NCBI RefSeq assembly: GCF_009939295.1
Contig: NZ_WVIC01000004.1
Coordinates: 1-64,000 of the forward strand
DNA from: Petrachloros mirabilis ULC683
GTDB taxonomy: Bacteria; Cyanobacteriota; Cyanobacteriia; Thermosynechococcales; Thermosynechococcaceae
Length of the DNA: 64,000 nt
Reading direction: 5' to 3'
Shown here: positions 11,788-53,890 of the stretch, piece by piece
How positions within the stretch are numbered: the first letter of the stretch is position 1
How the letters are laid out: the number at the start of each line of letters is the position of its first letter
The notes under the pieces: model-generated
Seen by the model: the letters and a program-made list of their open reading frames with translations, nothing else
Database searches by the model: none
Told to the model about the DNA's origin: nothing
Made by a program: the position numbers and the translations under genes

Positions 11788-13314
11788 CTATTTCCTGAGG
11801 ACTATGTTCCTCGAAAAGAAGCTTTTGTTGGGGCTGGGGCAGCAGCGATCGCAGTGTCCGCACTGAAGCTGAGCAGCCTCTTGGCAGAATCCAAAGGCAT
11901 GTAAGATAAATTGCCATCGGCATTGGGAATCGTTAATAAATTTTGGCAGATCGGTTACCCCGTGGGTATGCAGTGTCCCCTGGGGGGTACGGCCAGTAGG
12001 CATAAGTTCATAGTGAAAAGGATCAGGCCACTGCAACCGGCCAACACTGTGCAGGAGCGAGAGTGCCAAAGCCCCGTGGGGATATTGGCGACTGATGGCT
12101 GCCACTTCGCCTTGAGGGGGAATTTTTTTGATCAAGGCTTGAGCCTGTTGCTGTTGCGATCGCAGCTGCCCCAAAAAATACTGTCGTTGCTGTCGGTCTT
12201 GGGGATCAAGCCAGCCCGTCGGCTCACTGACCAGCATCAGCGCTTGGGCGGGCAAACCATCCCGTCCACCTCGGCCTACTTCTTGAACATATTCAGCCAA
12301 AGTTAGGGGAGGCCGAAAATGGCACACCCAGCGGACATTGGCCTTGTTGACACCCATACCAAAAGCATTGGTACACACCACAAAAGGGATCTCTCCCTCT
12401 AGCCAGCCGGCTTCTAGCTGCCGCCGCTGGTGAGAGCCAAGTCCGCCATGGTAGGCAGCAGTTCTGTAGCCCTGTTGATGCAGCCAGGTGGCCAGGGCTT
12501 CACACTCGCGGCGGCTGCGACTGTAGATCAGTCCGGTGGTCTGCCCCTGAGCTCGGATAAAACGCAGGAGCTGCTGTCGGCGGCAAGCTGGCGTCCAGGC
12601 GATACTGACTTTTAGAAACAAATTGGGACGATAGGGGCTTTGGCGAAAGATCTGGGGCTGCCGTAGGTGCAAAACCTGCTGAATCCCTGCTACGGTCTTG
12701 GCATCAGCCGTGGCAGTAAAGGCGGCAATGGCCACCGTGCGATCGCCGCCTGCCGAGCCAGGAGATCCTCCATCCATCTGCAACGCCAAGCGAGCAGCTC
12801 CCAAGCGCCGGTAGACCGGGCGAAAGCTGTCACCCCACTGCACCAAGCAGTGGGCTTCATCAATGACAAGGGCGCGCACCGGGGAACGACACAGGTGAGG
12901 CCAAATCGCCTCACTCAGGAGAGATTCAGGAGACAGGTATAATAGCTTTAAGGACTGAGATTCCAGTTGCCGCACTGTTCCCCGCCGCAATCCCGTGCCC
13001 ATTTGACTGTGGAGCAGGGCTGCCTTAACCTGGCGTTGATGTAGTTCTGCCACCTGATTTTCCATGAGGGCAATCAGGGGCGAAACCACAATCGTTAACC
13101 CAGGAGCCAGAAGGGCTGGCAACTGAAAGCAAATCGACTTTCCTGCCCCAGTGGGCAGCAATGCCATAGTGTCTTGGTGGAGCAACTGTTGGGTAACGAT
13201 TTCAGCCTGCAAGGGTCGAAATTGTTCATAGCCCCAGATGTCCCGGAGCCCCAGATGCGCCCTTTGCCAAGCCTTCTGGTAGGCCAAGGTCTGAGCAGGA
13301 GAGTTTTGTGTCAT
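11788..13314 (-). CDS. recQ: RecQ-family ATP-dependent DNA helicase, short form
   Basis: 508 aa. The helicase core is complete: LPTGAGKS (Walker A, 53-60), DEAH at 152-155, ATADAKT, and motif VI QEVGRGGRDG. The C-terminus has a zinc-binding cluster, CGHCDRC preceded by a cysteine seven residues earlier, then stops within 15 residues, so the winged-helix and HRDC domains of E. coli RecQ are missing. A short form is common in cyanobacteria. Likely acts in recombinational repair, 3'-5' unwinding. A transposable element lies three bases upstream of the start codon, so the native leader and ribosome site may be lost (no Shine-Dalgarno visible). Confidence 0.88.
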   Translation of the reverse strand: MTQNSPAQTLAYQKAWQRAHLGLRDIWGYEQFRPLQAEIVTQQLLHQDTMALLPTGAGKSICFQLPALLAPGLTIVVSPLIALMENQVAELHQRQVKAALLHSQMGTGLRRGTVRQLESQSLKLLYLSPESLLSEAIWPHLCRSPVRALVIDEAHCLVQWGDSFRPVYRRLGAARLALQMDGGSPGSAGGDRTVAIAAFTATADAKTVAGIQQVLHLRQPQIFRQSPYRPNLFLKVSIAWTPACRRQQLLRFIRAQGQTTGLIYSRSRRECEALATWLHQQGYRTAAYHGGLGSHQRRQLEAGWLEGEIPFVVCTNAFGMGVNKANVRWVCHFRPPLTLAEYVQEVGRGGRDGLPAQALMLVSEPTGWLDPQDRQQRQYFLGQLRSQQQQAQALIKKIPPQGEVAAISRQYPHGALALSLLHSVGRLQWPDPFHYELMPTGRTPQGTLHTHGVTDLPKFINDSQCRWQFILHAFGFCQEAAQLQCGHCDRCCPSPNKSFFSRNIVLRK

Positions 13315-13317
13315 AAC

Positions 13318-13517
13318 TCAACCGTGTACACACAAGTCTTGAAAAGATTCAAAATCTTTGCACTCGCCCCCCTAGCCCCCCCTCGCGCAGCGTGCCCGAA
13401 GGGCGTAATTCTGGGGGGAAATAGTCCCAGTTTTTGTTGATCTCCCCCCAAGCTTGGGGGTCGGGGGGGCTAATGCAGGGTGGAATGGGTTTACCTAGAG
13501 ATGTGTGTACACCGTAG
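13318..13517. repeat. Family A element, copy A2 (GTGTACAC ends) at recQ start
   Basis: A 200-bp element with inverted ends ACCGTGTACACACA and, on the complement of the right side, ACGGTGTACACACA. It is flanked by GTCATAAC on both sides (13310-13317 and 13518-13525), an apparent 8-bp target duplication that contains the recQ start codon. Inside are the same C/G-run modules as the other A copies. It occupies about half of the 438-base gap before htrA; the rest shows nothing I can name. Confidence 0.8.
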
Positions 13518-13752
13518 GTCATAACCGGAGTCCGATCTTGCTCGGTCGGGGGCAATAGCCCCGTCAATGGAGCTAGAAAAATCGCTATAAAGAAAGGGAA
13601 ACTTTCTAACTTAGTCTATAGTCTTTGAAAGCAACGTGATCGTTTCAGTTCTCTTGAAATAAGCGGTCTAGAGTTCTGAAATTACTCCTTAGTTTCCCTA
13701 GAATCGCTTACCGTTGTCCTGTGTCGTCAGAGATTATCCTGAGCGTCTGGCT

Positions 13753-14943
13753 ATGTCTTCCAAATTCTCGATGCAAAAATCTGTCACCTATCTCTCGCTG
13801 CTGCTGGTTGGCGCGTTAGGGAGCTTCGTGGGTACTCAAATTTTGCCCAGTAGCAGCCTGCTGCCTCAACCCAGTGTGGCTCAATTACCCAACCCCCTCT
13901 CCGGGCAGAATGATCCGAACTTTATTGCCAACGCCGTGGATCGGGTTGGTCCTGCGGTGGTGCGCATTAATGCATCCCGTCGGGTCACAACTCAAGTGCC
14001 TGGCATCTTCAACGATCCCTTCTTTCGGCAGTTTTTTGGCATGGAAGGCCCTCCTCAGTCTCAGCCCCGCACCCGAGTGGAGCAGGGAACAGGGTCAGGC
14101 TTTATCATCAGTGCGGATGGCATGATCTTGACCAATGCCCACGTGGTGGCAGGAGCCGATTCCGTGACGGTAAACCTCAAAGATGGTCGTTCCTTTGAAG
14201 GTCGAGTTATGGGATCTGATGATCTGACCGATGTAGCTGTGGTCAAAATTGAGTCGAACAATCTGCCCACCATCCGCATGGGAGATTCTGATCGCCTGCG
14301 ACCCGGCGAATGGGCTATTGCCATTGGCAATCCCCTCGGCTTAGACAACACCGTAACAGCGGGAATTATTAGCGCCACCGGGCGCACCAGTGGCGATATT
14401 GGCGTCACCGACAAGCGGGTGGGCTTTATTCAAACCGATGCGGCCATCAATCCCGGAAACTCTGGGGGGCCTCTGCTCAACCAGTCCGGTGAGGTGATTG
14501 GCATGAACACCGCCATTATTGGGGGTGCCCAAGGTCTAGGGTTTGCCATTCCGATCAAAACGGCACAGCGGATCGCCCAAGAACTGATTGCCAATGGGCG
14601 AGTAGAACATGCCTTTCTGGGGATTCGCATGACCAATTTGACCCCGGAAATGCGCGATCGCATCAATAGCACCCCCAACGCCAACCTCCGGGTCACAGAA
14701 GATCGGGGCGTGTTGGTTGTGCAGGTAGTGCCCAACTCTCCGGCAGCTCGGGCTGGCTTGCGGACAGGCGACGTGATCACCCGCATTGACAATGAAAACG
14801 TGACCCGAGCCTCTGAAGTCCAGCAAAAAGTTGATCAGACCACCTTAGGCGATTCGCTCCAGCTCTCCATTCGTCGGGACGGACGGGACCTACAGGTGTC
14901 TGTGCAACCTGGACCGCTTCCGACCCAGATGGGACAAGGCTAG
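13753..14943 (+). CDS. HtrA/Deg-family serine protease with PDZ domain (1)
   Basis: 396 aa. N-terminal membrane anchor or signal (residues 11-27), trypsin-like domain with the triad H130 (LTNAHVV), D160 (DLTDVAVV) and S237 (NPGNSGGP), then one PDZ domain (about 285-390). This is the HhoA/HhoB/HtrA layout of cyanobacteria, envelope proteases handling misfolded proteins under light and heat stress. I cannot tell which of the three it is. ATG 13753 is preferred over a TTG 39 bases upstream. It is followed eight bases later by the glycosidase gene, probably cotranscribed. A paralogue lies at 60040. Confidence 0.9.
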   Translation: MSSKFSMQKSVTYLSLLLVGALGSFVGTQILPSSSLLPQPSVAQLPNPLSGQNDPNFIANAVDRVGPAVVRINASRRVTTQVPGIFNDPFFRQFFGMEGPPQSQPRTRVEQGTGSGFIISADGMILTNAHVVAGADSVTVNLKDGRSFEGRVMGSDDLTDVAVVKIESNNLPTIRMGDSDRLRPGEWAIAIGNPLGLDNTVTAGIISATGRTSGDIGVTDKRVGFIQTDAAINPGNSGGPLLNQSGEVIGMNTAIIGGAQGLGFAIPIKTAQRIAQELIANGRVEHAFLGIRMTNLTPEMRDRINSTPNANLRVTEDRGVLVVQVVPNSPAARAGLRTGDVITRIDNENVTRASEVQQKVDQTTLGDSLQLSIRRDGRDLQVSVQPGPLPTQMGQG

Positions 14944-39203: not shown

Positions 39204-39356
39204 ACGTGAGTTCGACGACTTATCCGCCCTCACCCCCTAGCCCCCTCTCCCAACATTGGGAGAGGGGGAACAGAGCAGAAATTCAACGTTTTAGCCCCTC
39301 TCCCAATGTTGGGAGAGGGGTTGGGGTGAGGGCAGACGAGAGCTGTCGAACTCACG
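39204..39356. repeat. Family C MITE-like element at the rpoC2 stop
   Basis: About 150 bp. Terminal inverted repeats ACGTGAGTTCGAC (left 39204-39216, right complement 39344-39356), with an inner hairpin of GGGAGAGGGG / CCCCTCTCCC arms. Both sides carry GTAATCCGTAA (39194-39204 and 39356-39366), a 10-11 bp direct repeat, the left copy including the rpoC2 TAA. Inner hairpins could also stop transcription. Confidence 0.8.
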
Positions 39357-48540: not shown

Positions 48541-48740
48541 CTACGGTGTACACACATCTCTAGTTCTCCGTGTTCCACGCTGCATTAGCCCCCCCAACCC
48601 CCCAAAATTGGGGGGAGAAATCCGAAAGTTAGAACTAGTTCCCCCCAGAATTACGCCCTGCGGGCACGCTGCGCGAGGGGGGGCTAGGGGGGCGAGTGCA
48701 AAGATTTTGAATTTTTCAAGACTTATGTATACACGGTAAC
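48541..48740. repeat. Family A element, copy A3
   Basis: About 200 bp with ends CTACGGTGTACACACA and, on the complement of the right side, TTACCGTGTATACATA. It interrupts a Family C remnant: CTCACCCCAACCCTCTCCC lies just before it and GTGGGTGAGGGG just after. A 149-bp stretch (48553-48701) is identical to copy A4 except for one base. Confidence 0.7.
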
Positions 48741-48767
48741 TGTTAGTGGGTGAGGGGTAAGGTCATG

Positions 48768-48947
48768 CGGACACATCTCTAGTTCTCCGTGTTCCACGCT
48801 GCATTAGCCCCCCCAACCCCCCAAAATTGGGGGGAGAAATCCGAAAGTTAGAACTAGTTCCCCCCAGAATTACGCCCTGCGGGCACGCTGCGCGAGGGGG
48901 GGCTAGGGGGGCAAGTGCAAGGTCTAAGCAACTTCTCAAACAAGCTC
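48768..48947. repeat. Family A element, copy A4 (chimeric ends)
   Basis: Body 48772-48920 matches A3 at 148 of 149 bases. The left boundary is the GTGTACAC-type shortened to ACACATCTCTAG; the right end is GAG-type (CTTCTCAAACAAGCTC) with TTA directly outside. So it joins the two end types found on other copies. Confidence 0.7.
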
Positions 48948-49276
48948 TTAGCAAAAAAAAATCTGCTTGTGCCTAAAACCTCAGATCCAAGAAGTTTCTG
49001 CGCACATTACGTTCAAACAATCATGTCTCAAGTTTACCTTGAGCTGAGGACACCCCAAAATAGCTTTTAATTTTCATTGATAAAGTAAATTTGCCATCAT
49101 CTTAACCCAGACTTTACGTTCGACGTGTAAGGTTCTATGGCAGCATAGGCACAGTCAACGTCTAAATAATGCTAAAGAGCTTGCCTCTAAAGCACAATCG
49201 CGCCAAAAGCCACTCAGGGAACAGCGTAAGCTGGAATGATCTCAAGCACCCATCTATCCCGAGGGCATTGTTTAGG
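48948..49276. other. Intergenic stretch without a recognised feature
   Basis: About 330 AT-rich bases between A4 and B1. I see no gene, no tRNA and no strong hairpin. It may include a promoter for the plus-strand HpsA-like gene, but 800 bases away. Confidence 0.5.
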
Positions 49277-53498: not shown

Positions 53499-53518
53499 TG
53501 ACTGTGACGCTTCCCTCA

Positions 53519-53692
53519 GAGCTTGTTTGAGAAGTTGCTTAGACCTTTCACTTGCCCCAAGCCCCCCCTCGCGCAGCGTGCCCGAAGGGCGTAATTCTGG
53601 GGCGAAATGGTCAGAGTTTTTGGCTCTCCCCCCCCATTTTGGGGGGTCAGGGGGGCTAATGCAGCGAGGAATGAGGCTTTTCAGACGGCCTC
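53519..53692. repeat. Family A element, copy A7 (GAG ends)
   Basis: 174 bp. Left end GAGCTTGTTTGAGAAG; the complement of the right end is GAGGCCGTCTGAAAAG. Flanked by TCA on both sides (53516-53518 and 53693-53695), a 3-bp TNA duplication. Together with A1 it defines the GAG-type ends. Confidence 0.8.
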
Positions 53693-53890
53693 TCAAGAGA
53701 TCGATCTATGGAAGGCCAGGGATGGATGACTGAATGTATCAGGATTTTAACCTTCGCTAGTCAAGATCCCAAAAGAATCTAGATCATTTCGCCAATCCAG
53801 ACAAACTTATGCATTCATGGTTCAGAAGAGGAGTAGCGCTTGCTGCCCCTTTCCCTAAATCTTTTGTACCCGCCAAGAGGAGTGATACCG

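Follow-up and report, generated by a model that had tools for sequence, protein, structure and literature searches.

The recQ-htrA locus

The window, that is, the whole stretch of 64,000 nucleotides of Petrachloros mirabilis ULC683 that was analysed, contains a divergent recQ-htrA gene pair with a transposable element between the two genes. The features of the locus are listed below.

11788..13314, minus strand: recQ, intact, encoding a short RecQ-family helicase of 508 aa (TIGR00614 above cut-off; DEAD and Helicase_C only)
13310..13318, no strand: left target-site duplication GTCATAACT, with the recQ ATG on the minus strand
13319..13517, no strand: non-autonomous 199-bp MITE with ISSysp3-like (IS4 family) ends, terminal repeats CAACCGTGTACACACAAGTC / CTACGGTGTACACACATCTC
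13349..13522, minus strand: mechanically called ORF of 57 codons, from the duplicate ATG through the element to a stop 34 nt before the recQ ATG
13518..13526, no strand: right target-site duplication GTCATAACC, with the displaced duplicate ATG (13522-13520, minus strand)
13527..13596, minus strand: old recQ leader of about 70 bp, found once in the genome and now on the upstream side of the element
13597..13624, plus strand: intact GGAAAC-N18-GTC box, probable ECF-sigma-type htrA promoter
13714..14943, plus strand: HtrA/DegP-type serine protease, the divergent neighbour (Trypsin_2 and PDZ; probable start ATG near 13754)

The 508-aa helicase is a short RecQ paralogue. It scores 307 against TIGR00614, the model of the broad RecQ family (cut-off 219.8), and stays at 359 bits against the 640 of the full RecQ model TIGR01389. 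Among the domain models, DEAD and Helicase_C alone exceed their cut-offs, and neither RQC nor HRDC was found in the protein. A second, full-length RecQ with RQC and HRDC is encoded on contig 26.

The divergent pair is kept in eight relatives, whose recQ neighbours are 63-71% identical to this HtrA, and the element lies between the genes in none of them. The empty site was reconstructed and reads ...CTCCGGTTATGACACAAAAC..., as the genomes compared include none of the same genus and no close relative was found in two genome collections. The old leader was considered as a possible second repeat, which its single copy in the genome rejects.

In the relatives, recQ and htrA have a very tight common intergenic region. 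A GGAAAC-N17/18-GTC box is found on the htrA strand once in each of the eight relatives with the htrA-recQ pair (L010, L012, L013, L015, L016, L019, L022, L124), and in seven of these the distance between its -35 box and the divergent recQ start is 4-16 nt. In relatives for which no htrA neighbour was found, the region upstream of recQ lacks the box. In P. mirabilis the distance from the box to the recQ ATG was 74 nt before the insertion and is 282 nt now. Read on the recQ strand, the same GTTTCC box had been a candidate for a conserved recQ leader. It is found only at loci where htrA diverges from recQ, and its opposite strand reads GGAAAC-N18-GTC; the box was therefore assigned to htrA instead, where it is probably an ECF-sigma-type promoter. 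We take it to resemble such a promoter, as would be expected for an htrA/degP gene. Literature on htrA with SigG was searched for and nothing was found.

The 199-bp element and its copies

The element occupies window positions 13319-13517, contains no gene and has the ends CTACSGTGTACACACAWSTC. Its limits were set by the family consensus ends (CTACCG...CGTAG) taken from other copies. The only reading frame in it is the mechanical one of 57 codons, and a transposase-type ORF is absent. The element thus has what defines a MITE: it is short and without a transposase gene, has terminal inverted repeats and a target duplication, and is present in many genome copies.

Searches for the MITE ends in the 4.1-Mb genome returned 293 matches with at most three mismatches and 264 with at most two, while a reversed-pattern control returned 0. 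A copy number of roughly 130-147 was derived from these end counts, and similarity comparison places copies at 49 sites. For 46 copies the wider surroundings were compared with mechanically called ORFs, and 44 of these copies are not within an ORF. Leaving aside an internal length difference of 24-25 bp, the copy at recQ shares 97.1% identity with a consensus built from 44 copies and is among the closest to it. This closeness suggests that the insertion at recQ is fairly young, probably one of the younger of the family. The element DNA had no match in plasmids, and an Rfam search with it had none either.

The target-site duplication

The sequence GTCATAAC at 13310-13317 is repeated at 13518-13525, and the left copy holds the complement of the recQ ATG (13314-13312). 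With the element delimited by the consensus ends, the target duplication measures 9 bp, of which all but one match (8/9; GTCATAACT/GTCATAACC). The 9-bp duplication and the family ends confirm the earlier proposal that a transposable element was inserted at the recQ ATG and that the ATG was duplicated. Two details of that proposal are revised: the consensus ends put the element four bases from the ATG (AGTT on the recQ strand) instead of three, and the leader was not replaced by the element but displaced 208 bp upstream.

Of the 49 MITE copies with both ends, 24 are flanked by duplications of 9-12 bp that differ at no more than one position; most of these are 10-11 bp long. Because of these duplications, and because the end sequence occurs 264-293 times against none in the control, the duplication at recQ is not due to chance. 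Dyad symmetry is higher in the target sites of the family than in shuffled versions (0.39 vs 0.24; 0 of 2000). At recQ the target is the quasi-palindromic site GGTTATGAC, with the start codon inside. A preferred target is another palindromic repeat, CTCTCCCnnnnnnGGGAGAG, with many MITE copies at its centre (loci L047, L049, L055, L063, L065, L069 and L172 of the same genome; window 39245-39317).

The probable parent insertion sequence

A full-length element with such ends was found in G019, a relative of the same family. There, two ends lie 1,490 bp apart within a perfect 10-bp duplication, CCATGCTTGG, and a transposase is encoded between them. This transposase matches NF033590 (IS4 family; 351 bits, cut-off 160) as well as PF01609, and the Y-2-R-3-E-6-K motif of DDE transposases is read in its translation as YKFRWRIERLFAQLK. 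Its identity is 97-98% with plasmid-encoded proteins of Acaryochloris 'Moss Beach', and 59% with the transposase of ISSysp3 from PCC 7002. Ends of this type, with duplications of 10-11 bp, also occur in ISSysp3 and in the elements of Nostoc C057 and Acaryochloris 'Moss Beach'. ISSysp3 itself, on plasmid pAQ7 of Picosynechococcus sp. PCC 7002, has the same terminal repeat as the MITE, there CTACTGTGTACACACAAG. Target duplications of 10-11 bp are shared by all four full-length elements and the majority of MITE copies; the one at recQ has 9 bp. Judged by the shared ends and the duplication length, the probable parent of the MITE is an ISSysp3-like member of the IS4 family. The MITE differs from such an IS in having no transposase gene, and its interior is unrelated to that of the full-length element. 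Literature on ISSysp3 was searched for and nothing was found. In G019 the full-length ISSysp3-like element (contig 3, L192, 1039-2990) splits a gene for a putative metal ABC transporter substrate-binding protein.

No ISSysp3-like transposase was matched in the 79 contigs of the P. mirabilis assembly, so the MITE family looks orphaned in this genome as assembled. The PF01609 matches that the genome does contain were rejected as the parent IS, being two other transposases. Several contigs of the assembly terminate within copies of the MITE family. A full-length IS hidden at these contig ends was considered and rejected, as they led to nothing but further MITE sequence.

The start of recQ and its predicted folding

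Just upstream of the ATG the recQ frame ends at an in-frame TGA (13320-13318), so the plausible starts are now limited to ATG 13314 and TTG 13287 (codon 10). The initial annotation saw no Shine-Dalgarno sequence in the new leader, and none is present at ATG 13314 or TTG 13287. A Shine-Dalgarno sequence is likewise missing from the reconstructed empty site and, by the same simple motif test, from 74 of the roughly 79 cyanobacterial relatives whose recQ ATG is at the usual position. On this comparison of sequences, its absence is normal for recQ and not caused by the element.

The RNA of the element on the recQ strand is predicted to fold strongly (-88.4 kcal/mol, z -5.6), and most of the predicted hairpin is to be expected of any MITE that has terminal repeats. 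The 8-bp core of the duplication, GUUAUGAC, can pair along its full length with its own copy, two of the pairs being G-U, as about 2% of 8-mers can. By thermodynamic folding, which may not hold in the cell for a co-transcribed and translated leader, the recQ ATG is 0-8% unpaired in predicted transcripts starting upstream of 13525 (18 end combinations) and 33-77% unpaired in the joined empty site (5' and 3' ends varied). The predicted pairing partner of the recQ start region is the upstream duplicate copy, GTTATGAC. When this copy is shuffled in silico, or when the transcript starts inside the element, the ATG is about 50-60% unpaired.

A likely account of the locus, in our judgement, is that an IS4-type MITE was inserted at the start of recQ, that the ATG was regained, and that the start is now buried, which lowers recQ translation. 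An ISSysp3-like (IS4 family) transposase would have mobilised the 199-bp MITE into the recQ/htrA region at GGTTATGAC. Because IS4-type transposition duplicates its target, an ATG was restored on the recQ side and the reading frame was kept intact. The sequence shows that the first ATG was moved 208 bp upstream together with the old leader and the promoter region, and that the probable htrA promoter was not hit. If transcription of recQ still begins in the upstream region, the element would now be the 5' leader of the gene. This leader would fold to a long hairpin, lengthened at its base by the GUUAUGAC/GUUAUGAC pairing, so that the recQ start codon is buried. Initiation at the upstream duplicate ATG would yield a 57-residue peptide instead. 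With the start codon buried and the 57-codon frame upstream, the folding model makes reduced recQ translation, and not new activation, the most likely net effect. Lower translation of recQ may be tolerated because a second, full-length RecQ is present in the genome.

Alternative readings

Translation of recQ might begin at TTG 13287, in which case the ATG in the duplication would be incidental and the element would merely lie in the 5' untranslated region. The positions of the starts favour this: recQ starts of the relatives are mostly 16-19 residues ahead of the conserved WGY (79 of them at 19), which TTG 13287 fits at 17 residues and ATG 13314 does not at 26; that is, they lie 7-10 residues further in than ATG 13314. 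However, ATG is usually a stronger start than TTG, the missing Shine-Dalgarno sequence does not set TTG above ATG, and the reconstructed empty site also has the ATG in an open frame. We consider a TTG start unlikely. The initial annotation had instead supposed that recQ expression may depend on the element, and in its full form this means that the MITE supplies the promoter, with transcription starting near its recQ-side end and a very short leader. Many bacterial MITEs carry promoters (review PMC10969869), and the ATG is predicted to be about half unpaired in transcripts that start inside the element. Yet a scan of the recQ strand, which covers limited kinds of promoter, found no sigma-70-like site in or near the element. 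The old upstream region is intact, including the conserved htrA promoter box, and only one other copy of the 46 examined is, like that at recQ, 30 nt or less from an ORF start. We therefore regard an element-borne promoter as improbable, somewhat more so than the TTG start.

The contigs that end inside MITE copies also raise the thought that the assembly has falsely joined two loci through the repeat. A false join would not give a matching target duplication on both sides, and the recQ/htrA neighbourhood is kept in the eight relatives; we regard such an artefact as extremely improbable. Returning to the buried start codon, a bolder form of the account is that the duplication made a switch. The paired GUUAUGAC copies would silence recQ on transcripts from the old promoter, and the gene would be expressed only from transcripts that start within the element or lack the upstream arm. 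As the transposase favours dyad-symmetric targets, MITE insertion at a start codon would then tend in general to lock the start codon of the gene that was hit. We hold this extension to be doubtful.

Relation to known elements

Like Nezha and the Correia elements of Neisseria, the MITE at recQ is short and non-coding, has terminal inverted repeats and a high copy number, and is almost always intergenic (44/46 here). The ends and the parent IS of Nezha and Correia differ from those of this MITE. Nezha, a cyanobacterial MITE, is cited in a review (PMC10969869). The copy at recQ differs from promoter-bearing MITEs in that no promoter was found.

Inhibition of read-through by a hairpin is known for IS10 and IS50. 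Leader hairpins have been described for IS200 (PMC3196728). The likeness to these three is that only in transcripts entering from outside would the hairpin hide a start site; the difference is that the start predicted to be hidden here is that of the host gene, paired with the second copy of itself that the target-site repeat contains. In Amoebophilus asiaticus, IS elements lie too near a downstream start codon for a Shine-Dalgarno sequence (PMC3196728). The element at recQ similarly ends a few bases before the gene start, whereas the Amoebophilus cases are full IS elements for which co-transcription was measured. The insertion is of an ordinary kind and the element belongs to a known kind of MITE; the predicted start-codon pairing is the sole unusual point. 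With more than 100 intergenic copies, one hit on a start codon is unsurprising. The locus illustrates that a duplicating transposon can land exactly on a start codon and yet leave the gene a start codon. If the folding holds, a MITE would have a simple way to lower the expression of its host gene without breaking it, by means of its own target duplication.

A second repeat family

A second repeat family, with ends like AGAGCTTGTTTGAGAAGTTGCTTAGACC, has 68 ends in the genome (control 0), with copies at window 53517-53697 and 48771-48949 and at loci L070-L075. It has a G/C-rich interior of about 130 bp in common with the MITE at recQ (86-89% identical), and the ends of the two differ. We read this as two MITE families with one interior module. 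At window 48541-48949, a copy with 87% identity to the recQ-site MITE adjoins a second copy of the interior that bears the end of the other family, an arrangement that is nested or chimeric.
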